Assembly: GCA_000024525.1 (NCBI GenBank)
Contig: CP001769.1
Location: forward strand, 7,783,001 to 7,847,000
Source of the DNA: Spirosoma linguale DSM 74
Lineage (GTDB): Bacteria; Bacteroidota; Bacteroidia; Cytophagales; Spirosomataceae
Direction: 5' to 3'
Length of the DNA: 64,000 nucleotides
Position 1 is the stretch's first letter; every line of letters begins with the position of its first letter. The notes under the pieces are model-generated. The model saw only the letters and a program-made list of their open reading frames with translations, was not told where the DNA came from and did no database searches. The position numbers and the translations under genes were made by a program. Below, one piece after another: positions 50,345 to 64,000 of this stretch.

Positions 50345-51574
50345 ATGCGTTTTAATGCTCTGCTTCTCGCTTGGTTGCTCTGTTTTACGATTAAAGCTCA
50401 CTCACAACCTACACTATATGGAATCTTTGTCGGAGCCGTTGAGGACCCCAAGCTTGCCGTTGCCTGTCAGGTCGATATTAAAACAATGTTCGATAGGTTT
50501 GGCTCCATTGCCCGTTCGATTGGCTATAAATATAAAGTAGGCGTATTGACCAAAGACAATTTCTCGAATGAAAGCATCAAATCCGTTCTGGATAGTATTA
50601 CCTGCGGACCCGACGATATTATCGTTTTTTACTACACAGGTCATGGGTATAATCGGGCCGGTACCAGCGACGAATTTCCGGTGCTGCATGTGGATACACT
50701 ACAGGTAAAAACAAATTTTCCGCTGTCGGGAATTCACCAGACCCTACTGAGTAAGAAGGCCCGATTCTGTCTGTCCATTGGTGATTGCTGTAATGCGCTG
50801 GCAAACGAAACGCCACCTCAGGAACGCAGTTTAGTAAAAGGAACCAATTGCAATCCGGAGATTTTCGAGCAATTATTTCTGAAATCTCGTGGGGGGGTTA
50901 TGATTGCCAGTAGTAAGCGGGGGCAGTTTTCAGGGGCATCGTTTACCAATAGCTGGTACACCTGGGCTTTTCAGGAATCGTTAGAGTATGCCTGCCACTA
51001 CAATAATCAAATTACCTGGCAACAACTTCTGGATGACTCTCAAAACCGGATGTGGAGTATTACCGCTGCACGAGTTCATAAGCAGGAGTCTGTTTACAAA
51101 CTGAATTTACTGGATCAGTCAACCAGCCCGACTCCGGTGGCTGCTGTTCAGGCAGATACCGTTCCGAATAATGCCCCAGTTGCTTCAACGCCGGTAGTTT
51201 CTGGAAATGCTGCGCCACCTGTAGAGGTGGTCAATTCAACAACTATGCTGACAGTCTCAACTGCTGGCCAACGGCCTGACTACAGTCTGGTGAACAAGTA
51301 CCTGACTGGCCTTGCCAATCCATTGATCAGTTATCAAACCCGCAAGGCTATGCAGCTACAGGCTGGTCGGTTTTTTATTCACAATGCCAAAGTAAATCTG
51401 TATGTCAACGATACGAGGGTCGATGTTCTGCCGCTTCAACAACTGATGAACCGCTATGCTGTATCGACAGACAAGCACTCTGTCCGACAGGTGAATTTAG
51501 TAGAACGTTTGTCGAAACTTGATCCTTCAGGTCGATTCTACACGGAAATAGCCTTACAGGAAATCTGGGAATAA
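50345..51574 (+). CDS. Exported caspase-like (C14) protease, type A, with C-terminal accessory domain
   Basis: The 409-residue protein has a signal peptide (MRFNALLLAWLLCFTIKAHS). The caspase-like domain spans about 24-240, with catalytic His 100 in DDIIVFYYTGHGYN and Cys 149 in CLSIGDCCNA. The Cys motif is DCCN rather than the usual DxCHSG. A Pro- and Thr-rich linker (about 255-315) leads to a 90-residue C-terminal domain (VNKYLTGLANPLISYQTRKA...). It resembles the protein at 51874 and may be NTF2-like. It is paralogous to the caspase at 59532 (shared GPDD-x7-GHG block and GGxxxxSS-x4-F). It opens the protease cluster. Substrate unknown. Confidence 0.85.
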   Translation: MRFNALLLAWLLCFTIKAHSQPTLYGIFVGAVEDPKLAVACQVDIKTMFDRFGSIARSIGYKYKVGVLTKDNFSNESIKSVLDSITCGPDDIIVFYYTGHGYNRAGTSDEFPVLHVDTLQVKTNFPLSGIHQTLLSKKARFCLSIGDCCNALANETPPQERSLVKGTNCNPEIFEQLFLKSRGGVMIASSKRGQFSGASFTNSWYTWAFQESLEYACHYNNQITWQQLLDDSQNRMWSITAARVHKQESVYKLNLLDQSTSPTPVAAVQADTVPNNAPVASTPVVSGNAAPPVEVVNSTTMLTVSTAGQRPDYSLVNKYLTGLANPLISYQTRKAMQLQAGRFFIHNAKVNLYVNDTRVDVLPLQQLMNRYAVSTDKHSVRQVNLVERLSKLDPSGRFYTEIALQEIWE

Positions 51575-51595
51575 AGCTTTTTTTCTACCACATCC

Positions 51596-51808
51596 ATGAA
51601 ATCAATACTGCCTTTGTTGTTCGTGTTGTCTCTTGTGTCTATAGTCAGTCAGGCACAGGAGACCAACACATTCCCGCCCGCACTGACCAATCAGGAGTTA
51701 CGTGATCTTCATGACGAAACCTTGACACAAATCAACTCTCTTGTGAATTATCTGGGAGTTATTGCCGATAGAAACACTGGAAGGTACAATTTTCTACTAT
51801 CGCCCTAA
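51596..51808 (+). pseudogene. Truncated duplicate of the following gene
   Basis: Seventy residues: a signal peptide, then LTNQELRDLHDETLTQINSL and LGVIADRN, closely matching the start of the gene at 51874 (LTNQELQDFHDETLKRIKSF, LGVIADKN). A 17-bp block CTGGGAGTTATTGCCGA is identical in both. After that point the sequence diverges and stops at 51808. It is either a decaying partial tandem duplicate or a very short exported protein. Confidence 0.65.
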
Positions 51809-51873
51809 GCACTACTCAACTAGTAGCCCGGTAATCAAAATCTTAATTTACAGTTTGTTCTAGTCAATGCTCT

Positions 51874-52464
51874 ATGAAACCTTTGTTCGCTTTCTTATTA
51901 CTACTCTCAAGCCTGGCGTCTGTTAAGGGTCAGGATCCGCCGAAAACATTGACCAATCAGGAATTGCAGGATTTTCATGACGAAACCTTAAAGCGAATCA
52001 AATCCTTTGTGGACTTTCTGGGAGTTATTGCCGACAAAAATCGCTCTTTTGATGAGCGTAATGATGCTATTCAGACGGTGATGCTCATGTTCGAAAAGGG
52101 GGCTACCGTTGAGGTATCTAATATTAATAAGGGCGAGGTCAAAACCCACAAGTTGCGGCAGTACCTCGAAAATGTAAAATCATTACCCTACAGTCGGATC
52201 GAAATTACGAACTATGATGCTGCCCGACTCGACAACTGGACTCGGCAATTGGATGGTTCCTATCGGGCAACGGGTACCTTTTTTCAGGAATTCAAAGGGT
52301 GGCATAAAGACCAGGGGGACCCTCGGCCCTATGGAGATCGGACAACCAAGAAAATTGATGCCGACTTGCGCGTACGAGAAGACACTTTCTACAAGGAAAA
52401 GCACTGGATGGTTCTTTTTCGCAACGTCACGGTGCATAGTACAGAACGTATTCCTGTTAAATAG
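51874..52464 (+). CDS. Exported protein with possible NTF2-like domain
   Basis: The 196-residue protein has a signal peptide (MKPLFAFLLLLSSLASVKG). After an N-terminal helix pair come FDERNDAIQTVMLMFEKGAT, VEVSNINKGEVKTHKLRQYL and LPYSRIEITNYDAARLDN, then strands to the end. The helix-then-beta order and the motifs resemble the C-terminal domain of the caspase at 50345 and suggest an NTF2-like fold. It may bind the protease or a common ligand. I do not know a named family. Confidence 0.7.
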   Translation: MKPLFAFLLLLSSLASVKGQDPPKTLTNQELQDFHDETLKRIKSFVDFLGVIADKNRSFDERNDAIQTVMLMFEKGATVEVSNINKGEVKTHKLRQYLENVKSLPYSRIEITNYDAARLDNWTRQLDGSYRATGTFFQEFKGWHKDQGDPRPYGDRTTKKIDADLRVREDTFYKEKHWMVLFRNVTVHSTERIPVK

Positions 52465-52474
52465 ACCTGTGGGT

Positions 52475-53677
52475 ATGCTACTCAAAATCCTGCTTGGAGC
52501 TATTTCATCAGGAGCTTTCATGCTGATCTGTCCCGGTGCTCATACTGAGGTTTCCGGCCTGTTACCTTCCTCAGTTTCCGTCGATACGATCCCATCACCG
52601 ATTATGATTACCGATACATCACGTCATCCCTTCCCCGTCGATACAATCCCGTTAGGTCAGGCGGCTAAACGTACTACGGTTACAAGAAAGGATTCCATTC
52701 CATCGACAAACGCAAAGACACAGCCGCCGAAGCCCGATAAAAAAAATGGCGTCTTTATAAGGGATACGGTCGTGATGCCTGTTTCGATTGGGCGCTTAGA
52801 TTCATTGACCACGCCTAAGCCGTTCATAACTGTACGAACTCAGCCCGCTGAGCCTTATATGATTCAGCGTGTGGCGTTTGTGAATGATTTTCTGAATCGA
52901 CTTAATTACCTGCGAACTCCCTACAACAAACCATTCGATGAGCAGAGCCGGATGGAATATCCGCGCCAACGGTACGTACGAATGTTGTTTAATGAAGAAG
53001 ACCCGCGCTTGAACAGGTCTGTCCGGCAGCAGCCAGAACCGGCAGCACATACCGAATCGATTGCTTATAGTCTGCTGGTGGACGAATTCAGTAAGGAAGT
53101 AGCTGCTGAGCAAATGGCAGAATTTACACCTAAAGACAGTACGCGATTGTTTGGCGAAGTAGGGTATACTGTTTTGTATAGAAATTCCCAGCATCGAATT
53201 ACCTTTTACTTACAACAGGTTCATATCCGTGACTACTATAAATGGGAATTACTGGATGTCGACGCGACATTTCTGACCAGTAATTCGTCGGATAGTGTTC
53301 AGGCTTCGTCGATGAAACGGGATACAACGGCTTTTTTAGCTTCGGAAACGCACGAAACCCGATTTCTGGATCTGTATAACCAACTGCGGGACCACAAAAA
53401 TCTGCTCAACCTATTACCTGCTAAACAGTTAGCGAGTCCATCCATGGCGCTACTGGCCAAATACGTTCGGAATGATACGATTAATGTCCAGCAAACCGGG
53501 CGAGTCAATCTATATCTCGATACCAGGCGGGGCTGGCTGCTGCGGCTGCATGACTTTCATCGGGAGAAAGAAAATGCCGGCTGGCTGATTACCGAGCTCT
53601 ATAACCCACAATTCAAAACGGCTCTGCCACCTAAACCCATCGAACGGGTACTAAGGCGAAACAAAAACACCAAATGA
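52475..53677 (+). CDS. Hypothetical exported protein of protease cluster
   Basis: I start at the ATG at 52475, 10 bp after the previous stop, where a signal peptide begins (MLLKILLGAISSGAFMLICP); the open frame runs further upstream inside the previous gene. The 400-residue product has a low-complexity Ser/Thr/Pro region with repeated VDTIP motifs (about 25-110). Two probable alpha/beta domains follow (FLNRLNYLRTPYNKPFDEQS; FLDLYNQLRDHKNLLNLLPA then VNLYLDTRRGWLLRLHDF). Their pattern is loosely like that of the 51874 domain. Its stop overlaps a possible start of the next gene as ATGA. Confidence 0.65.
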   Translation: MLLKILLGAISSGAFMLICPGAHTEVSGLLPSSVSVDTIPSPIMITDTSRHPFPVDTIPLGQAAKRTTVTRKDSIPSTNAKTQPPKPDKKNGVFIRDTVVMPVSIGRLDSLTTPKPFITVRTQPAEPYMIQRVAFVNDFLNRLNYLRTPYNKPFDEQSRMEYPRQRYVRMLFNEEDPRLNRSVRQQPEPAAHTESIAYSLLVDEFSKEVAAEQMAEFTPKDSTRLFGEVGYTVLYRNSQHRITFYLQQVHIRDYYKWELLDVDATFLTSNSSDSVQASSMKRDTTAFLASETHETRFLDLYNQLRDHKNLLNLLPAKQLASPSMALLAKYVRNDTINVQQTGRVNLYLDTRRGWLLRLHDFHREKENAGWLITELYNPQFKTALPPKPIERVLRRNKNTK

Positions 53678-53697
53678 TTTCATCCATATCGTACCCT

Positions 53698-54738
53698 ATG
53701 AAAGCTGTCTTTTTTTTGGTGACGATCTGTTTGCTAACAGGTCTGGCTCAGGCGGCTCCGGATAATCGACCAACGGCGCCCGGACTCAAGGCTTATCCTC
53801 CCGAACTTATCAACTGGCTGAAAGCCTGGGAACAACAGGTCAATCGACTCAGCTATCGGGTCGACTCTACTGAAAGACACATCCGTGAGCAAACCTTGCT
53901 GGCTGCTTTTCAGCATACAGATACCCTTTCCATACCCGACTTGCGTCAGCCCCTGGCTGTTTACAGACATACGCTCCCACGCGTTACAGTTAGCACATGG
54001 ATTACCGGATTAGCGAATAGTTTCTGGGAGGATGCATTTCTGTTTCGGGTGCATCCCGTTGGCGATGGGCGACAACTTCGAACCTTGGGTCGAAGCCGAC
54101 AAAAGGTGCAGTTGCAACTACCGGTTCAGGTCAATTTATCGGGTATACTTCATGACAGCCAGCAACCGCATCACCTGCGCGATGAGTGGTATATGGTGCT
54201 GGAAGCAACAAACCAGAAAGGCATATATCAGGATTTTCAAATCCGATCCATTCAACGTATAGATAAACCCGTTGAGGTTCCGAACTTAACCATTGGCCGT
54301 TTGGTAGATTATGAGCAGCAACTGGAGCAAAACCTGATTCGTATTCTGGCTGATCCTACCCGACAGGGTGAGGCTCTGTTGAAACTTCAGCAGTTGATTC
54401 CATCGGATAGTGTACGTGTACTGACGAGTCAGAAATCGGATGCACTCCTGTTAGGCGACTTGCTTACCCTTAAACTACCTGTTACTACAGTAGCGCGTTG
54501 CCGGGTGGTATCGTTCGATATTTCTTACTGCGATAACTTTTTTCAGCAACCTGATCAGTCATTTGTTGGTCAGCTCACTGTGCTGGAAGGGGTCAGTCCT
54601 GCGATGAGCGATGCAACCTTATTTCGCCATCGTCGAAACGATATTATTCCTGTTACGGCAAGCCAGGTCGACTGGGGAGAACCCGTCGTTACGCTCTCCA
54701 ATGTGGTTATATCGTGGGAAAACCAGCAGCTACCATGA
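53698..54738 (+). CDS. Hypothetical exported protein of protease cluster
   Basis: The 346-residue protein starts with a signal peptide (MKAVFFLVTICLLTGLAQA); an ATG at 53674 overlapping the previous stop is also possible. Residues about 30-130 and 220-330 each look like a helix pair followed by strands (YEQQLEQNLIRILADPTRQG), again loosely recalling the domain of the neighbours. It overlaps the following caspase gene by 4 bp. No recognised family. Confidence 0.65.
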   Translation: MKAVFFLVTICLLTGLAQAAPDNRPTAPGLKAYPPELINWLKAWEQQVNRLSYRVDSTERHIREQTLLAAFQHTDTLSIPDLRQPLAVYRHTLPRVTVSTWITGLANSFWEDAFLFRVHPVGDGRQLRTLGRSRQKVQLQLPVQVNLSGILHDSQQPHHLRDEWYMVLEATNQKGIYQDFQIRSIQRIDKPVEVPNLTIGRLVDYEQQLEQNLIRILADPTRQGEALLKLQQLIPSDSVRVLTSQKSDALLLGDLLTLKLPVTTVARCRVVSFDISYCDNFFQQPDQSFVGQLTVLEGVSPAMSDATLFRHRRNDIIPVTASQVDWGEPVVTLSNVVISWENQQLP

Positions 54739-56270
54739 ACGCTTTTCTGAACGGATTGCTGGCGAGTTTTTTTGTGCTGATCTGCGTTGCAACTGGTTTG
54801 GCGCAGCCAGAAAATACAGCCCAGAAATTGATGGACCAAGCTTATCGTGAGCAAGATCTACGAAAAGCCATTGGTCTGTATAGCGATGTTATACAGATTA
54901 AGCCCAATGCTGATATAGCCTATTTTGGCAGAGCGATGGTACGCTCACAGCCTACCATTGAGGAATTTTCCGAAGCACTCAGTGATATTATCCGCGCCAT
55001 TCAGCTCAATAATAGTGTCGCAAAATATTTCGCACAGCGAGCTTATATCTACGTGCAGCTCAGCGATTATGAGCAGGCAATTCAGGACTACCAGCAAGCA
55101 ATCAGACTAGCCCCTTCGAAGGCCGATTATTACAGTGGCCTAAGCTATTGTCAGACTAAATTGGGGCGCTTCGCAGAAGGTGAAAAAACCGCTCAGCAAT
55201 GTATTGATCTCGATCCAGCGTCGCCATACGGATACCGCAATCGGGGACGTGCCCGACTGCGGAAAAATCAAACCGATCTGGCTATTGCCGATTTTCAGGC
55301 TAGCCTGCAACGTAAGCATGGGCAACCTTACCGAGTATATTCCGATCTCGGCGAAGCTTATGAACAGAAACAGCAGCCCCAGCAGGCATTGGCTTATTAT
55401 CGGCAGTCACTCGGCCTAAAAGCCGACTATAGCGAGGCACTAGTCGGAAGATATCGACTTGAGCAAAAGCAGCAACCTGCTCCTGCGCCAGCCCTCACAA
55501 CAGCCCCAACATTTACGGGACACCGTGTTGCGCTGGTAATTGGTAATTCCAACTATCGATATGTAAGTAGCCTGGGTGGGCAACCCGTCAATGATGCCCG
55601 AGATATGCAGAAACGGCTACAGGAAATTGGTTTTGAAGCCTGGTTAGCTACTGATGCGGATTATGACAGCACGTACCGGGCGCTGCAATTTTTTTATGGC
55701 AAAGCAAAAGGAGCTGATGTGGCTCTGATTTTTTATGCCGGACATGGCATGCAGCACTATGGCGAAAACTACCTGCTCCCTGTTAATATTCAGTTCGATA
55801 CGACGCGGTTGTTAACAAAACAATCGGTGTCCGTCACCAGTATGATTGACGGACTGCAAACCAGGCAACCCCGTTACTGCATTATTATTCTGGATGCCTG
55901 CCGCGACGATCCGGCCGGTCAGCAACAGGCCTTTCGCAAACCAGCTCCCAAAGACACAACTCGTTCGCTGGCAACGACTCTTCGGCCACTACCGACGAAT
56001 GATATTCGTGGTTTCCGCCCGATTTACGTTGAAAATAAGATTAAAAACTGTTACATCGCTCTGGCAACAGCGCCTGGAGCAACAGCCCGCAATGGACCCC
56101 AGCAACATGGCTTTTACACGGCGGCTTTGCTGAATCACCTAAAACGGGGGCGACGGCTCGACGATGTGTTCCGCGATGTGCGCAACGACGTAATCATCCA
56201 GACACAAAAAAGCGGTGCTCTGCAGCAACCCGAATACATTGATCGAACGATTGATTTGCTTGTGCTTTGA
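54735..56270 (+). CDS. Exported TPR-caspase (C14) protease, type B
   Basis: I start at the ATG at 54735, which gives a signal peptide (MNAFLNGLLASFFVLICVATGLA) and a 4-bp overlap with the upstream gene. The 511-residue protein has a TPR array at about 30-245 (SKADYYSGLSYCQTKLGRFA, PYRVYSDLGEAYEQKQQPQQ), a short Ala/Pro linker, and a caspase domain at about 260-505. That domain begins RVALVIGNSNYRYVSSLGGQ and has VNDARDMQKRLQEIGF, catalytic His 337 in IFYAGHGMQ and Cys 389 in IILDACRDDP. The motif set is that of peptidase C14 proteins with an intact dyad. The TPRs probably recruit substrates or partners. Confidence 0.92.
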   Translation: MNAFLNGLLASFFVLICVATGLAQPENTAQKLMDQAYREQDLRKAIGLYSDVIQIKPNADIAYFGRAMVRSQPTIEEFSEALSDIIRAIQLNNSVAKYFAQRAYIYVQLSDYEQAIQDYQQAIRLAPSKADYYSGLSYCQTKLGRFAEGEKTAQQCIDLDPASPYGYRNRGRARLRKNQTDLAIADFQASLQRKHGQPYRVYSDLGEAYEQKQQPQQALAYYRQSLGLKADYSEALVGRYRLEQKQQPAPAPALTTAPTFTGHRVALVIGNSNYRYVSSLGGQPVNDARDMQKRLQEIGFEAWLATDADYDSTYRALQFFYGKAKGADVALIFYAGHGMQHYGENYLLPVNIQFDTTRLLTKQSVSVTSMIDGLQTRQPRYCIIILDACRDDPAGQQQAFRKPAPKDTTRSLATTLRPLPTNDIRGFRPIYVENKIKNCYIALATAPGATARNGPQQHGFYTAALLNHLKRGRRLDDVFRDVRNDVIIQTQKSGALQQPEYIDRTIDLLVL

Positions 56271-56287
56271 ACTAGCTCCACACCTAC

Positions 56288-57775
56288 ATGAAATCAATTT
56301 GCCCAATTCCACTTATCCTCATAGGCTTACTGATGTTTTTTAGCCGCTCGCAGTTGTATGCTCAGGCAACGTTTACGAAAGGCGATACACTCGCCATTAC
56401 AAACGGTTGCAACACTGCTCTGGATAACTATATGGCTTCGTTAAACGCCGTAAACCGAGAATATTGCCAGCAACAAGGTGAGTTTGAGGCTAAGTTACAG
56501 ACGCTTATTGGACAATCGTTTTTAAGTAGAGACAGTTATGTTTATAACGACATTGACGCTGGAGACTACAAAGTTTCTGAATATGCACAACGGTTCGGGT
56601 CGTATCATTCAGAAGCAGAACTGGACATGGAGCATGCCCGTTACCTCTTGAAGCGCAATGCTCAAAAGCAACTGGCTATCGTCATTTATGTGCGTCAGAC
56701 GACGGGATTCACCCGCCCTGGCGAGAAGGCATCCAGCGTAACAACCGCTCTGGCCATTCACTGGACGTTTAATCTGACACCCCAAACAAATGGGTATCAG
56801 CCTCAGCAATACAAAATTGTTAAGATCGAAAAAGAGGCTTCTGTTCCGGCTCAGGCTCTACCTTATCCGGATGTTCAGGATTTGTCGGCGTTGCGTGAAG
56901 CCGAACGAAGTCTGAACTGGACTGCGTATCGACTGGGTCAGGCCATTCATGAGAAACTTCCGCCATCGGTGAAAAAAGTGATCGTGCAGAAGTTTTCGTA
57001 TCAGAAAAGTTTGCTGACAAATGAATTCTCAGACAAGCTCGCCGATGCCTTGAGTCATCATCTGAGAAAGGACGAGGATTTGACCGTGCTGGGGCAGGAA
57101 GCCAAAGAAGGGATCACGATTAAGGGCTATTATCAGCAATCGGGAGAACTGGTCGAGATTATAGCTGAATTGATCGATATAGCCACGGGGAAACCAATTG
57201 CCAGGCTCAAACCAAATCGCGATCTGTCAGTGGCCTGGACCGAAAAAAATGGCCTTCCACTCAAGCCGGGTGAAAATGATGAAGCCCTGGCTATTCAGCA
57301 AATGATTGGGGCCGATGCACCTGCCCGGCCTACCAAACCACAGCAACTGAGCGTCAATATAAGTACCACCCAGTCGATCCGGCCGTCGCAGGAATTTTGG
57401 GAAAGCGACACTATGTCGCTCAAAATCCGGGTAAATAAACCCTGCCATCTGCGCCTGCTCTACCTTCAGGCCGATGGCAAGACGGCATTGCTCTGGTCTG
57501 ATTATGAAGTAAAAGCCGATGCGGTGAATCAGGAAATTTTTTTCCCGACCCAATTTCAGTGCGTTCCTCCATTTGGGCAGGAAACGCTCATTGTCACAGC
57601 GGCCAACGATTCGTTCTGCCCAATTGCTACCGAGAAGAACGACTACGGGGTGTCTATCATAACGGGTACACTGGCCGATGCCATGAAAAGTTTTCGATGT
57701 ACACGCGGTATGGCTCCTTTACCTGAAAAAGCCGAAGCACGCTTAGTGATAACCACGCGGGGCATTGCGAAATAA
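56288..57775 (+). CDS. Exported DUF4384-containing protein
   Basis: The 495-residue protein has a signal peptide. The middle part (about 215-310) resembles assembly or penicillin-binding-protein activator-like domains (VKKVIVQKFSYQKSLLTNEF, LADALSHHLRKDEDLTVLGQ). The C-terminal part (about 375-470) matches DUF4384: MSLKIRVNKPCHLRLLYLQA, ADGKTALLWSDYEVKADAVN, GQETLIVTAANDSF. DUF4384 is often found with caspase or kinase domains. It starts 17 bp after the TPR-caspase stop and may be its adaptor or substrate. Confidence 0.8.
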   Translation: MKSICPIPLILIGLLMFFSRSQLYAQATFTKGDTLAITNGCNTALDNYMASLNAVNREYCQQQGEFEAKLQTLIGQSFLSRDSYVYNDIDAGDYKVSEYAQRFGSYHSEAELDMEHARYLLKRNAQKQLAIVIYVRQTTGFTRPGEKASSVTTALAIHWTFNLTPQTNGYQPQQYKIVKIEKEASVPAQALPYPDVQDLSALREAERSLNWTAYRLGQAIHEKLPPSVKKVIVQKFSYQKSLLTNEFSDKLADALSHHLRKDEDLTVLGQEAKEGITIKGYYQQSGELVEIIAELIDIATGKPIARLKPNRDLSVAWTEKNGLPLKPGENDEALAIQQMIGADAPARPTKPQQLSVNISTTQSIRPSQEFWESDTMSLKIRVNKPCHLRLLYLQADGKTALLWSDYEVKADAVNQEIFFPTQFQCVPPFGQETLIVTAANDSFCPIATEKNDYGVSIITGTLADAMKSFRCTRGMAPLPEKAEARLVITTRGIAK

Positions 57776-57813
57776 ACTTCCTGAAGCACGTACACTAAAA
57801 ACAGTTTATACTC

Positions 57814-59535
57814 ATGAGAATGTTTAACTACATTTTTTTGCTGGCCTTTTTGCCGCTAACCTTATTCGCTCAGGCACCGGCTAAGCCTGCAGCCGCACCA
57901 GGCTATGACGTACAAATCGATGGCGTGCCTATGGATATGAAAGAGTTAAAAGGCACCATTGTCGAATTTAAACCTCCTTATAAGTATATGCAGGTATTGG
58001 TGGAGGGCGATGAAGATGGGCGGTTTAGTAACGTGCTGGTGACCGACAGTACGTGGTTCCCCAGGCGGCATGTACAGTATTCAAAAACTGTACGCAAACC
58101 GACGAAGCCAGAAAACCTTCAAAAATCATCGCAATACCGACCTGGTATGGAGGTAAAGTTACATGTCAGCCACTATCAGCGATCCTTACGGAATGTTGCC
58201 AAAGAAATTTATCTGGATGAAGATTACTATGGAAAGGCTAAAGTAAGCGGCATTTTCGAATTCTACGATGGCAATAAAGCTGTGATTGACGGACAAACGG
58301 TCATCATGGAGCCGAATGCTGTAATTAAAGGCACCGATGAGTGGAAAAATATGACATTTAAGTCATTTAGCGAGATACAGCCCGGCTCTGAAATAACCGT
58401 GAAAGGTCGGCGCGATACAACCGGTATTGTGTATATCAAAGAAGGAACAAACTGCCCTATTAAAATTGGTAAAGATGATCTGCTGATGCGACGGGCCGTT
58501 AATAAAGCACTCTGGGTCAATAAAAATGTGCTGCAGATTGGTAAAGATGTTCGCTATGACTTCGTCATGGATCGAGCCATGTTTGCTTACGTCAATGACA
58601 TTGGCCAAAAGCTTATTCCTTCCTACCTGAAGACGCTGAAAGACGACCACCCAGACTTTATTAACTTCAAATTTTACCTGGTTCACGACAATTCATTTAA
58701 TGCGTCGGCCTATCCAAATGGGGCTGTCATCATCCATACAGGTCTGCTAAAACAACTGGATAATGAAGCACAACTGGCGGCCATTTTAGGCCATGAGATT
58801 GCCCATGTAACCCAACGGCATCATACCCATAGTTACAGTAAAGGTAAAGACTGGCAGGCATTGGCTGATTTCGGTAGCCTTGTGGGCGGGTATGCATACG
58901 GTACCGATTTGCCAGGACAGATTGCGCAGTCTGTAAAAGATATGTATCACAGCAGCTATAATCGAACTCAGGAAACCCAGGCCGACCGAATCGGATTGCA
59001 ATACATGTATAATGCCGGTTATGATCCGCGCGAAGCAGCCATTATTTGGGGAAAACTAGCTCTGGAAGACAAACACGATGAGGAAAGCCCCGAAGAAGCC
59101 AAAGCTTTAGCGGCCTTAAACGCCAATAGCGTAGCCGTTACCCGGCAGGATAATACAGCGCGGGCGACTCGGCTGGCGCTTTTCGGGAGCGCGCTGAATT
59201 ATTCCAGTTCGGCTATGGTCATGAGTTTGGCGAAAAATGTAGCCAGTAAAGCTGGTGAGTCAGTTTATGCCTCTCACCCACGCTCAAGGGACCGATTCAA
59301 CCATGTCAACTTTCTGCTTTCAACGGCCTACGCCAGTTATAGCTTCGACAAAACAGTAGCTGAAACACCTGAATTTACAAAATTCAAGAACCAGTTAAAC
59401 TCGTCTGGAACTTCGACTGCCCCGAATATAACATCGACAGCTACCAGCCAAACTCCACCTAAAAGTCTTAAGCCAGGTCAAACCAGACCTGGCGGCAAAA
59501 CCCTCGTAGCACCTAAAGCATCTAAGAAAAAATGA
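57814..59535 (+). CDS. Exported M48-family metalloprotease with N-terminal extension
   Basis: The 573-residue protein has a signal peptide (MRMFNYIFLLAFLPLTLFA). An unfamiliar beta-rich region spans about 30-215 and appears to hold two domains (KGTIVEFKPPYKYMQVLVEG; AKVSGIFEFYDGNKAVIDGQ). The M48 catalytic domain spans about 225-500, with zinc motif HEIAH (His 327, His 331; catalytic Glu 328) and third ligand Glu 387 in ETQADRIG. The C-terminus is Ser/Thr/Pro-rich and basic. Unlike BepA-type M48 proteins it has no TPR. It overlaps the next caspase gene by 4 bp, which argues for coupled production. Confidence 0.92.
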   Translation: MRMFNYIFLLAFLPLTLFAQAPAKPAAAPGYDVQIDGVPMDMKELKGTIVEFKPPYKYMQVLVEGDEDGRFSNVLVTDSTWFPRRHVQYSKTVRKPTKPENLQKSSQYRPGMEVKLHVSHYQRSLRNVAKEIYLDEDYYGKAKVSGIFEFYDGNKAVIDGQTVIMEPNAVIKGTDEWKNMTFKSFSEIQPGSEITVKGRRDTTGIVYIKEGTNCPIKIGKDDLLMRRAVNKALWVNKNVLQIGKDVRYDFVMDRAMFAYVNDIGQKLIPSYLKTLKDDHPDFINFKFYLVHDNSFNASAYPNGAVIIHTGLLKQLDNEAQLAAILGHEIAHVTQRHHTHSYSKGKDWQALADFGSLVGGYAYGTDLPGQIAQSVKDMYHSSYNRTQETQADRIGLQYMYNAGYDPREAAIIWGKLALEDKHDEESPEEAKALAALNANSVAVTRQDNTARATRLALFGSALNYSSSAMVMSLAKNVASKAGESVYASHPRSRDRFNHVNFLLSTAYASYSFDKTVAETPEFTKFKNQLNSSGTSTAPNITSTATSQTPPKSLKPGQTRPGGKTLVAPKASKKK

Positions 59536-60791
59536 GATTTCTACTCTTCTTTTGTCATGTCTTACTTTGTTTCGTCTGCCTGTCAGGTGGCCCATCTTAT
59601 GGGCAGGCGAAGCTTCATTTGCTCGTGTTTGCCGATACCGATGATCCCGATATTGGTGATGCCAATCGGAAAACATACAACTACCTGACAGGTCGATTCG
59701 GGCCTAATTCCGCCCAATATGCTGGTTTAACGCTGGTTACTGCTGGTTATTATGGTAGTCGTTGTACAGTTTCGGAGCTTGATAAATACCTGAACGCGCT
59801 GACGGTTGGCCCCGACGATGTAGTCATGTTTTACTTTATTGGTCATGGGTGGAACAACCGACAGAATGAATATCCATCCCTGATTTTTGGTAAAGCCAGT
59901 GCTAGTCGTGCTACGCTCGAAGCCAACTCCCGTAATCTGCTCGATGTTTATGAGCGTATTATGAGCAAAAATCCTCGCCTGGCACTGATCATAGGCGAAG
60001 CCTGTAATAAAGAGCGTTCGGATGACCCGCCCCTAACCAGCAATCTGGAAGCAATTCCGATGAAACCGCCTTCCGAAGATCCAGCTAAATTTCGTCAACT
60101 ACTTCGGGGATATGCCGGGAGCCTGGTGTTGAGCAGTTGCCGGCGGAATCAGTTTTCGTATAGCGATCCCAAAGGTGGCTGGCTTGGTTTAGCTTGGCAA
60201 AACTCCGTGAATACGGTGCTGTCGGATAAGCAAAAAAAGATGCCAGACTGGCAGGAGTTTATCAGTAGTGTGGTTCAGATAACCGAGAGAACGTCGGCCG
60301 TAAACAAACAGCTACAACAACCCCAGTATATCTTGACGGTTCGGCCAGCAAAGAGTGGTGCGAATACGAATACATCGAATACTATTGCTGAACGCCCCTG
60401 TCAGCCAATCAATAGTTATGTGAACGAAACCGCTCTGGCTGGTATTCGGGAGGACATGCCCTTATTGATAAAAATGAGTGATGAGATAGACTCAGATAAT
60501 GCGGTACAGTACGCCCAAAATTTCGAGCGATTTTACATGAACCAGCGGAGTTTTTATGATGAGCTGGGGAAAATGCTCTTTTATAATGCTGTCGATATGC
60601 CTGATAAATGCCGCCCGGCATTTCAGGAAGAGACCAAATGGGTGAAGGCGAACACAGATGAAATCACACGTCGCTACAAAATGGTGGTCAAGCAAGTCAA
60701 GAATCCTCAGCAATTAGTTGCTCAGGCCCGCTCCGAACTACCCTCCTTAATTCAGCGCCTGGAAGATATTCTACATCGACTGAATAAATAG
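59532..60791 (+). CDS. Exported caspase-like (C14) protease, type A
   Basis: The 419-residue protein has a signal peptide (MRFLLFFCHVLLCFVCLSGG) and a caspase-like domain at about 28-270, with His 105 in DDVVMFYFIGHGWN and Cys 158 in LIIGEACNKE. Glu replaces the usual Asp of the DxC motif. A matching block (GYAGSLVLSSCRRNQFSYSD) links it to the protease at 50345. The C-terminal 130 residues are helical (NAVQYAQNFERFYMNQRSFY) and differ from the accessory domain of that protease. It overlaps the M48 gene by 4 bp. Confidence 0.82.
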   Translation: MRFLLFFCHVLLCFVCLSGGPSYGQAKLHLLVFADTDDPDIGDANRKTYNYLTGRFGPNSAQYAGLTLVTAGYYGSRCTVSELDKYLNALTVGPDDVVMFYFIGHGWNNRQNEYPSLIFGKASASRATLEANSRNLLDVYERIMSKNPRLALIIGEACNKERSDDPPLTSNLEAIPMKPPSEDPAKFRQLLRGYAGSLVLSSCRRNQFSYSDPKGGWLGLAWQNSVNTVLSDKQKKMPDWQEFISSVVQITERTSAVNKQLQQPQYILTVRPAKSGANTNTSNTIAERPCQPINSYVNETALAGIREDMPLLIKMSDEIDSDNAVQYAQNFERFYMNQRSFYDELGKMLFYNAVDMPDKCRPAFQEETKWVKANTDEITRRYKMVVKQVKNPQQLVAQARSELPSLIQRLEDILHRLNK

Positions 60792-60807
60792 ATTATCTAA
60801 AGTGGCA

Positions 60808-63800
60808 ATGAGTTTTGATTTGTTTAAACCTAATGATGCCATGGTTAACCAAAAATTGATTCAATCCATATCTCTATGGCTATTCTGTTGGCTGATAGCT
60901 GGCTTTGTTTATGCACAACCGATGACGGAACGGGGCATGAAAGGCTTGACTACAGGCGATGGAGCTGCCTCATTTAATCATGTCTGGGCATTGTCGGTAG
61001 GCGTGTCGAAATACGCAGCTTCCAGCTATAGTACATTAAACTTTGCGGATGATGACGCGATTTGGTTCGACAAATTTATTCGGCGGGCCTATGGCCAGAA
61101 AGCCGTAAAAAAAGATGCGTTTCAACTGCTGACAAACGAAAACGCCACGGCACCAAATTTCAATAAATGGCTTTCTGGGCTTAAAGAAGCCCAGAAGGGT
61201 GATCTGGTCGTTTTATATTTTGCAGGGCACGGTTTTCTTAAATCGATTGAAAATAAGCCTCATTGCTACCTTTTGTTCCATAAAACTGAAGAAGGGAATG
61301 AAGGGGCGCCCGGCGACGACAACTGTTACCTGAGCCAGCTTTTAGAAACAACATTGACTGAACTGGCTGCCAGAGGAGTGAAGGTTTTATGTATTCTGGA
61401 TGCCTGCCACTCAGGAACAGCTCAGATCAGTACGCCTGTAAGTGCCATTACCGGGCAGAATTTTCTAACCCTACTCGCTTGTGGCAAAGATCAGACTTCG
61501 ATTGAAGATAAATCCTTCGGGGGAGGACATGGAGCCTTTACGTGGTTTGTTGTCCGTGGACTAGCTGGCGAAGCTGATAGCGATCAAAATGGTATTGTGC
61601 AGTTAGAGGAACTGGAAATTTATGTGAAATCGAAGCTTTTGGAAACCGGACGCGTATTTAAACATGACCAGAATCCTCTGTTTCCGAATGGCTCGTCCTT
61701 TGCTTTCGCAGCCAATCTGGCTCTTTTTCAGGAATTTCGGCAAGGGTCGATTGCTCCAAACGCTGAGCAAACAGCTGGTCTAACCGCCGAACAGCAGCAA
61801 ATCTATAAGAACTTACAGGCGGCCTTACAGGCTAAACAGCTTGTCAAACCCGCAGGGCGGAGTGTTCGGGATTATTTTGCGGTTCTAGCAAGAGATGCTA
61901 CGAACAAAGATTTACTAGCACCGATTGCCCGCGAATGGATGGTTGCTTTCGAAATCCCGGCTCAAACACTAATTGATCGGTACTACGACGGTAAATTAGA
62001 GAACTCAGAGCGGTATGCAGAAGCGGCCGGATTACTGGCAGAGTCGCTTAAATATCCACAATTTATTGCCGCAAACCGGCTGAACGAACTCACAGCCCGG
62101 CAGGCCTTTCTACGGGCTTATGCCTTCTTCTGCCAATACCTGGAAAATAAACAGACGTTGGATGAATCGGAGCGAAATAACCGATTCAGAGGGTTAATAA
62201 GTGATTTGGAGTCAGCTGCTGGCTTATCGCAGGCACCCGCGTACATCTATAATGTAATCGGTTTGTTCTGGCACGAACTCAATGATAAAGAGAAGGCCGA
62301 ACAGTATTATCACAGGGCCCGGGAACTGGCGCCTACCTGGGCTATTCCCATTAATAACTTAGCGGGCCTGATCGAAGATTCCCGACAGCGAATCAATCAA
62401 TATGAGCAGGCGAAAGGGTTTTATGTAGCCTTAATGAACATTGTTAGAGAGTACAAAACCCTAAAAGAGTACGACAAAGCCAGGGAGTATCTGCAAAAGG
62501 CCTTAAAGAGTGCCGCCAATGATTCAGCAAAAGTGGCCGATATCTATAAGCAGTATGGCTTAATTTATCAGGAAGAGGGAGAAAGCAATTCGGCTAATTA
62601 TGATAAAGCCATTGAGTCGTATCAGAAAGCGGCTCAATGGGCTCGCTCGAATCGGTCCATCCGACAAGGGCTCGATCTGGAACTAACCCGCCTGTACCTA
62701 CAAATGAAGGCCTATGACAAAGCCGCAGAGACGTTTGATCGTTACATTGAACAGGAAGAACAGATTGTGACTCGCCAGTACAATGAGCTGTATCGCCATT
62801 ACCGATCCCTACTAACTGAACAACGCGGGGAGTATTTTTATCGGATAGGTTATTGTTACGAAAAAGGGTATGGCGTCGCCCGGAGTGATGCGGAAGCCCG
62901 GCGCTGGTATCAGTTTGCCGCTAATATGAATTTTAACATGGCTGTAGCTAAATTAACCCATCTTTATACAGCGGTAGGTGCAAATGATGCCTTGAAACGT
63001 CTGAGAAAAAATCAGGAAAAAGGATACTTGAGTTGCACTGCATCTTGCCGAAAAACCGATGGCACTTTAGCTACATTTACGGTTTACCTGCATGATTTTG
63101 TGGCTAATTCGAAAAATCCGGTGAGCGAGGAGCAGGATAGGATTCAGCAGGCTTTCGGAGCTAAAATATCTGAGGACGCACTCAGTGCTTTCCTGAAAGT
63201 CTATGAGTTAGCACAGAAACATAATGTTTCATTTCAGGATTTAATGAAGTTCGTAATTAATGAAAATGAAAAGAGTCAGGTAAAAGTTGCTGAAGGTAAA
63301 GCCTTCGAATTTGCGAAAGCAGAGCAGCCGGACAGTGTGATGCGGTACATGAGAAAGGCGGTTTTAGGCCTGGACATCGACCTTTCCAGTGAGGTTAAAT
63401 CGTCGCAAAAATTACTTGATTCATTACGGGCAGGAACCAGCCGGCCAGGGCTGTTTTATTATGCGCTGGGATACCTTTATGAAAACAAAACCAGCGGTCG
63501 GGAATGGGGTGGGAAAGCCGAAAAATGGTATAACTATGCCTTTCAGACAGGTTATGCCCCCGCTTATTTTCCGCTGATGAAGCATTATAAGGCCCTGTCT
63601 ATGACGTCGTTTACTACTTGGCTTACCGATAACTATAACAGGGGAGTAGAAGCCAAACAGGTCAAATGCACACTCGAAAACGGTAAGGAGCAATGGTATC
63701 CGCTGTATCTGGTAGACTTCCCGGCTAATCCATCTAATCCGATTGCCGACGAAGCTAGTCGATTGAAAGACGTATATGGAGCTAAGGTAGCAACCAAGCT

Positions 63801-64000
63801 AGCCAGTGCCTTCAAAACCATTTATGAGACAGCCCAGCGCGAAAGGCGTTCGTTTATCGAGCAGTGTCGGCTTAGCCTGAATATAACACCTGAGCGGGAG
63901 AAGAAGGCCAGCTCAGCTGCCGAGCAGCATGCCCGTCGGGGAGATGAGTTATATGAAGAGCGGAAATATGCCGATGCGGTTGGCCCGTACCAACAAGCTG
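60808..64000 (+). CDS. Exported caspase (C14) with long TPR/Sel1-like region, partial (runs off right edge)
   Basis: The frame stays open from the ATG at 60808 (or 60841, which gives a cleaner signal peptide MVNQKLIQSISLWLFCWLIA) to the end of the window, at least 1064 codons. A caspase domain at about 48-315 has NHVWALSVGVSKYAASSYST, His 141 in LVVLYFAGHGF and Cys 200 in ILDACHSGTA, the textbook motif. Next come many TPR- and Sel1-like helices (EKAEQYYHRARELAPTWAIP, EYFYRIGYCYEKGYGVARSD, LFYYALGYLYEN), and at the edge a new repeat begins (HARRGDELYEERKYADAVGP). It starts 16 bp after the previous stop, so it belongs to the cluster. Confidence 0.9.
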   Translation, partial: MSFDLFKPNDAMVNQKLIQSISLWLFCWLIAGFVYAQPMTERGMKGLTTGDGAASFNHVWALSVGVSKYAASSYSTLNFADDDAIWFDKFIRRAYGQKAVKKDAFQLLTNENATAPNFNKWLSGLKEAQKGDLVVLYFAGHGFLKSIENKPHCYLLFHKTEEGNEGAPGDDNCYLSQLLETTLTELAARGVKVLCILDACHSGTAQISTPVSAITGQNFLTLLACGKDQTSIEDKSFGGGHGAFTWFVVRGLAGEADSDQNGIVQLEELEIYVKSKLLETGRVFKHDQNPLFPNGSSFAFAANLALFQEFRQGSIAPNAEQTAGLTAEQQQIYKNLQAALQAKQLVKPAGRSVRDYFAVLARDATNKDLLAPIAREWMVAFEIPAQTLIDRYYDGKLENSERYAEAAGLLAESLKYPQFIAANRLNELTARQAFLRAYAFFCQYLENKQTLDESERNNRFRGLISDLESAAGLSQAPAYIYNVIGLFWHELNDKEKAEQYYHRARELAPTWAIPINNLAGLIEDSRQRINQYEQAKGFYVALMNIVREYKTLKEYDKAREYLQKALKSAANDSAKVADIYKQYGLIYQEEGESNSANYDKAIESYQKAAQWARSNRSIRQGLDLELTRLYLQMKAYDKAAETFDRYIEQEEQIVTRQYNELYRHYRSLLTEQRGEYFYRIGYCYEKGYGVARSDAEARRWYQFAANMNFNMAVAKLTHLYTAVGANDALKRLRKNQEKGYLSCTASCRKTDGTLATFTVYLHDFVANSKNPVSEEQDRIQQAFGAKISEDALSAFLKVYELAQKHNVSFQDLMKFVINENEKSQVKVAEGKAFEFAKAEQPDSVMRYMRKAVLGLDIDLSSEVKSSQKLLDSLRAGTSRPGLFYYALGYLYENKTSGREWGGKAEKWYNYAFQTGYAPAYFPLMKHYKALSMTSFTTWLTDNYNRGVEAKQVKCTLENGKEQWYPLYLVDFPANPSNPIADEASRLKDVYGAKVATKLASAFKTIYETAQRERRSFIEQCRLSLNITPEREKKASSAAEQHARRGDELYEERKYADAVGPYQQA

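Follow-up and report, generated by a model that had tools for sequence, protein, structure and literature searches.

The stretch of Spirosoma linguale DSM 74 analyzed here, 64,000 nucleotides long and referred to as the window (contig C1:7783001-7847000 of an 8.49-Mb genome in nine contigs), ends in an operon of ten + strand genes, in the order C1, tU2, U2, U3, U4, C5, D6, M7, C8, and C9, which encodes four caspase-like proteases with predicted export signals together with proteins sharing a putative NTF2-like module. Both the export signals and the conservation of the operon in relatives are well supported by sequence comparison, and we tentatively propose that the operon encodes an envelope caspase complex, in the periplasm and/or at the outer membrane, held by NTF2-like adaptors. 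An earlier note on this DNA had described ten genes on one strand, spaced by -4 to 65 bp, and a recount of the coordinates gives, from C1 to C9, gaps of 21, 65, 4, -4, -4, 17, 38, -4, and 49 bp.

Protease Domains and Catalytic Residues

All four caspase-like proteins score above the PF00656 cut-off of 21.4 bits, with 45.9 bits for C1 (50345..51574), 107.4 for C5 (54735..56270), 27.0 for C8 (59532..60791), a paralogue of C1, and 41.1 for C9, and they account for four of the six PF00656 matches in the genome. C5 combines TPR with the caspase domain, and C9 (60841..64000 in the window) combines it with TPR/Sel1 and DUF2610, reaching a full length of 1263 amino acids and ending at contig C1:7847632, 632 bp beyond the window; starts farther upstream are possible alternatives for C9. 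The His/Cys dyads are intact at H100/C149 in C1, H337/C389 in C5, H105/C158 in C8, and H130/C189 in C9, which argues for real proteases. The four caspases and the residue pairs listed for C1, C5, and C8 in the earlier note are thus retained, and the C9 dyad is also present, its numbering there as 141/200 reflecting a start 11 codons upstream of 60841. In the C1 family the dyad is found in 110 of 110 aligned rows, query included; these rows, like those of the signal-peptide and Q-rule counts below, are not independent because one genome region was fetched by two routes. The C1 profile matches metacaspase chains (E 0.005-0.008).

M7 (57814..59535) is an M48 metalloprotease (PF01435, 94.9 bits against a cut-off of 20.3) with the motif HEIAH, as the HEXXH protease of the earlier note. 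Its catalytic part is nearest to BepA, with residues 251-427 aligning to solved BepA at E ~1e-20, and the two share the M48 domain and HExxH, whereas M7 reaches 112.9 bits against the NCBIfam equivalog cut-off of 570 and has a different N-terminal region, which gives a weak DUF5666-like match in Pfam. D6 (56288..57775) has a C-terminal region resembling DUF4384 that scores 25.2 bits, just below the cut-off of 27, so that the name DUF4384 protein given to it earlier is a weak label for D6 alone. Nineteen relatives align with D6, and its profile finds no match among solved chains. The middle region of D6 looked by eye like an LpoB/CsgG domain, a reading rejected after a negative profile comparison with the LpoB-like neighbor family.

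Export Signals

Signal peptides were scored by a crude hydrophobic-core and cleavage score (threshold 3.5) and by the Bacteroidetes Q-rule, in which Gln directly follows the signal peptidase I site (PMC5837995). Every product in the window passes the crude score except U3 (3.25), which is also the sole miss among the ten under the Q-rule; 48 of 53 members of the U3 family pass the crude score. Family-wide, the Q-rule is fitted by 64/70 rows for U2, 47/53 for U3, 90/108 for C1, 62/77 for C5, 67/74 for D6, 12/14 for C8, and 9/13 for M7, compared with 215/956 background genes and with 0/33 and 1/32 for the families SIG7 and TPR8; low counts are also obtained for LAM5 (4/40), F9 (11/25), and ZN12 (0/10). 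On the Q-rule result the possibility that the signal peptides are not real is rejected, and the earlier statement that almost all products carry them holds as a prediction. Four unrecognized exported proteins, one truncated, had also been counted, which agrees with U2, U3, and U4 having nothing above cut-off in Pfam and with the shortened tU2 and fails only in the unrecognized export signal of the window copy of U3.

The gingipains (C25) and clostripain (C11) are proteases of caspase fold that are exported in Bacteroidota, and type IX secretion cargo carries a C-terminal sorting domain. The window proteins differ in belonging to Pfam C14 and not to C11 or C25, and a type IX sorting domain family of Pfam is not matched at E ≤0.1 in the nine proteins scanned (C9 as far as the window end).

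The NTF2-like Module and Its Partners

U2 (51874..52464) has an α+β fold predicted to be NTF2-like, and its profile finds no sequence match among solved chains at E ≤1. The predicted fold is its likeness to the NTF2-like superfamily, from which it differs in having a signal peptide and in being tied to caspases. In profile comparisons the U2 module recurs in the C terminus of C1, in the N-terminal region of D6, and in U4 (53674..54738), where two regions are related to either the U2 module or the D6 N terminus. U3 (52469..53677) starts with GTG and completes the core formed with C1 and U2. Between C1 and U2 lies tU2 (51596..51808), a decayed U2 copy of 70 amino acids that retains its signal peptide; at the same place the Larkinella rosea stretch (L013) has two full U2 copies. 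The repeated module, as well as a linked Srf operon outside the window described below, had gone unseen in the earlier note.

The genes found beside the core in relatives vary. Among the four genes scanned that follow U3 in Bacteroidales, two (L100 and L105) combine TPR or Sel1 with an outer-membrane barrel, one (L112) combines TPR with TonB_C, and the fourth (L104) gives no match. In family f2, a protein of L056 has LRRs after its U2-like N terminus. Clusters of Siphonobacter, Telluribacter, and others are extended by a papain-type protease with DUF4384 and by LamG or PKD proteins, and those of Larkinella and a metagenome-assembled genome (MAG) by an LpoB/CsgG-like protein. One possible reading of these varied partner genes is an envelope assembly whose anchors or sensors can be exchanged.

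Other neighbors were observed alongside these. In L055-L057, which are of family f2, U2 and U3 stand between a lipoprotein-like gene and a gene for a U2-like protein (with LRR in L056), in a run that is free of caspases. A lipoprotein-like gene of ~190-205 amino acids stands just before C1 in Bacteroidales (L100:9332-9931, L095:9384-9998, L105:9408-9992, and L128:9423-9995). In two genomes (L027/L064 and L024) a tubulin-like protein follows D6 directly or one gene on (L027:11274-14315, PF13809; L024:12235-15270, a close relative).

Conservation of the Core and of the Full Gene Set

Core counts are taken from a scan of named genomes with the C1 profile, limited to the 80 best among 190 confirmed loci and with groups read from record titles. 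U2 lies directly after C1 or is fused to it in 43 of the 80, three loci being too short to tell. The proportion is 16/17 in Bacteroidales (one titled only Bacteroidia), 4/4 in Siphonobacter, 6/8 in both Larkinella and Dyadobacter, 3/4 in Spirosoma, 6/15 in other Cytophagales, 1/18 in other or unspecified Bacteroidota, and 1/6 outside all of these. U3 follows within eight genes in 16 of the 17 Bacteroidales loci. Gene calls in the relatives' stretches come from a simple open reading frame caller that lost U2 in L016, L063, and L078; tblastn recovers it in all three, L063 and L078 being the two missed loci here. A separate arrangement is seen in a Parachlamydiales MAG, where five C1-like caspase genes without U2 are packed into ~4.8 kb (L093:7531-12342).

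Six relatives share the longer order C1-U2-U3-(U4)-C5-D6-M7-C8, with identities of 30-62%. They are Larkinella rosea, L. humicola, L. punicea (U2 found by tblastn between C1 and U3), Larkinella sp. C7, a Cytophagales MAG that is without U4, and Spirosoma fluviale; in Larkinella sp. C7 the contig is broken ahead of C1, which sits at one end of a separate contig (L059). The U4-C5 overlap of -4 bp is retained in all five relatives having U4. The earlier note had made its idea of a system depend on co-occurrence of the genes in relatives, and this check did not refute it, as the genes do co-occur in these six; a multi-caspase run with export signals is shared in order by some relatives, and the M48 protease is not a general part of it.

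Proposed Mechanism

In the proposed envelope complex the ten genes would be co-transcribed, and the exported caspases C1 and C8, together with the TPR-bearing C5 and C9, would be the cutting parts. The NTF2-like modules (C1 C terminus, U2, U4, and D6 N terminus) would act as adaptors joining the caspases, TPR proteins, and envelope-anchored proteins into a complex. Proximity of the caspases or an envelope signal, perhaps stress or attack, would then lead to activation and to cleavage of substrates among envelope or surface proteins, and in the window version the BepA-like M48 protease M7 may finish or regulate the cutting, so that a proteolytic cascade, as suggested earlier, is possible. The proposal builds on the domains, intact dyads, predicted signal peptides, kept order, shared module, and predicted U2 fold, and on the outer-membrane barrel, TonB-C, or LRR domains assigned to partner genes in relatives. 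An exported conserved set of this kind would mean that regulated proteolysis by caspases takes place in the envelope within a major phylum, including relatives of Bacteroides and Prevotella, and C1 with U2 offers a clear partner pair open to testing.

Several observations weigh against the proposal. In other or unspecified Bacteroidota, U2 is next to or fused to C1 in only 1 of 18 loci, the other 17 being without U2. The 20-kb stretches L052 and L055-L057 carry U2-U3 without C1 or another matched caspase, so that U2 and U3 need no nearby C1 caspase, and L024 has U2-U3-D6 and no C1, with a C5-type caspase adjoining U2. U3 was considered as a relative of U2, with negative results in the profile comparisons and in the A4-A5 comparison, and the profile comparison was likewise negative for the Bacteroidales genes after U3 (X4). 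Of the 22 rows of the U4 family only 9 fit the Q-rule, although 19 pass the crude score. A shared fold is no proof of an adaptor role, as an NTF2-like protein may also act as an enzyme or bind a ligand. The system is also sparse in the family and in the phylum. Of 150 family genomes, 22 have D6, counting the genome of the window, and 11 have U4, in each case together with D6; among 17 other genomes of the same genus D6 is found in two, both distant, and U4 in none. A scan of 395 genomes of the phylum, with only 3 or 8 candidates per genome scored, gives D6 in 18 and U2 in 10.

The M48 Protease and a Possible Role in Envelope Quality Control

The M48 protease is restricted to certain lineages. 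Among 26 stretches picked by D6 (the window and 25 relatives), M7 occurs in seven (the window, L013-L017, and L034), and in stretches picked otherwise it is seen in S. fluviale (L062), in L074, which also has a C8-like gene, and weakly in L047 (1e-21). Other versions of the cluster have a papain-type protease instead, so that the two protease chemistries of the earlier note, caspase and M48, are correct for the window and vary elsewhere. This distribution bears on the main rival explanation, in which the caspases and the M48 protease have the routine task of processing or clearing proteins that are exported or belong to the outer membrane, no death or attack signal being involved, and the NTF2-like proteins serve as substrate receptors or inhibitors. 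The likeness of M7 to BepA, a β-barrel assembly-enhancing protease among its nearest solved relatives, keeps outer-membrane quality control in this place, and the LpoB/CsgG-like protein in relatives and the papain-type protease of other versions would suit it. The confinement of M7 to a minority of stretches, its score far under the BepA equivalog cut-off, and a sparse distribution that would be odd for housekeeping make this explanation somewhat unlikely.

A Convergent SrfB/SrfC/Subtilisin Operon

Downstream of the caspase operon lie an IS21 istA/istB pair (L007:1799-4132) and then a convergent SrfB/SrfC/subtilisin operon (together L007:1799-18000 and L142; contig C1:7847799-7870650), and the operon of the window is one arm of a ~37-kb region at contig C1:7833345-7870650. 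A second istA/istB pair of the same IS21 family lies close to a different caspase locus in this genome (L038:978-3311). SrfC (PF10139, 424 bits) and SrfB (PF07520, 665 bits) are above cut-off; for SrfA, a neighboring protein of 175 amino acids was considered, which gives no Pfam match. SrfABC is described in Xenorhabdus (PMC6950479); the likeness consists in SrfB and SrfC, and the difference is that here they occur with a subtilisin beside a caspase operon.

SrfC is found in 6 of 150 family genomes. Five of these have the full set (G000, G082, G091, G100, and G116); MAG G054, the remaining full-set genome, is without SrfC, and G075 has a distant SrfC and no D6 match. Each of the five carries the Srf operon on the contig of the caspase operon and in convergent orientation to it. 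The distance from the last gene of the caspase operon to SRF18, the closest Srf-operon gene among those compared, is 8 bp in G116, 2.0 kb in G082, 2.7 kb in G100, 6.3 kb in the window genome, and 37.5 kb in G091, and in the S. fluviale stretch (L062) SRF18 comes directly after C8, again convergent. On the far side of the Srf operon a papain-type gene is present in 5/5 and TPR8 with the sigma-like SIG7 in the four with a stretch long enough to include them, and these three families occur in or beside caspase clusters of Siphonobacter and Dyadobacter.

This linkage, with SrfC in 5/6 full-set genomes against 1/144 others (Fisher p = 6e-8, from two genera only and with kinship uncontrolled), points to a second rival, in which the two operons form an antagonism or defense module directed at other cells or phages and the exported caspases process or release an effector. 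The shared flanking families would fit such a module. It is distinctly unlikely given the restriction to two genera, the 17 of 22 D6 genomes that show no SrfC match, and the result from PADLOC, which yields a generic caspase model only. An extension of the envelope caspase complex to the whole region would be an apoptosome-like logic, in which the NTF2-like module couples sensors or anchors (LRR, LamG/PKD, TPR, barrel, and TonB-C) to exported caspases and the Spirosoma/Larkinella version is coupled to the signal-peptide-free SrfB/SrfC/subtilisin operon and a sigma-like regulator pair. We regard this extension as rather unlikely; if true, it would represent a like-to-like adaptor logic for caspases outside the cytoplasm in Bacteroidota.

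A set of proteases for nutrient scavenging or surface degradation, with no assembly or regulation, would explain why the catalytic proteins appear exported and why LamG/PKD proteins are near clusters in relatives. It is improbable, as the non-enzymatic U2 and U3 accompany C1 in 16/17 Bacteroidales loci and the module is built into the caspase itself, unlike simple degradative sets. A collection of envelope genes brought together by chance or paralogy and sharing no function, as might be read from the C1/C8 paralogues, the duplicated U2, the repeated module, and a C9 that seems added here (an LpoB-like gene takes the place after C8 in L014-L016), is likewise improbable in view of the order and U4-C5 overlap kept in relatives and of a core order kept across two orders.

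Relation to Described Systems

Discussion of bacterial caspases mostly treats them as cytoplasmic effectors of cell death or defense, and metacaspases typically cleave after basic residues, autoprocess, and depend on calcium. The window proteins resemble the metacaspases/orthocaspases (C14, PF00656) in their caspase domains and intact dyads. The EACC1-associated caspase model NF047832 (cut-off 140 bits) is not reached by C1 (24.9), C5 (43.5), or C9 (55.2), and C8 is not among its listed matches. The contrast with cytoplasmic caspases drawn in the earlier note is overstated, as a 2012 survey of 237 metacaspases in 217 predicted operons had already noted 20 operons containing two or more metacaspases, from four bacterial groups including Bacteroidetes, as well as probable signal peptides (PMC3501461). 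Other conserved operon types, including sigma-factor operons in Myxococcus, are also described there, and one secreted caspase is noted in the YARHG paper (PMC3355149). The maximum in that survey is three metacaspases per operon, compared with four caspases here, conserved with NTF2-like partners that are not named in the available portion of the survey. A literature search of open-licence PMC papers gave no paper describing this operon.

Promoters and Base Composition

A scan with a Bacteroidota promoter pattern finds two matches in the window, where 1.39 are expected, and none within the operon, and a σ70 scan gives 27 sites against 23.0 expected; both are near the expected counts and thus neutral on one shared promoter. 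The ~900 bp upstream of C1 (49439-50344) is without a called gene of at least 80 codons. The GC content is 46-48% over the operon and mostly 48-57% elsewhere in the window, with 43% at the left end.
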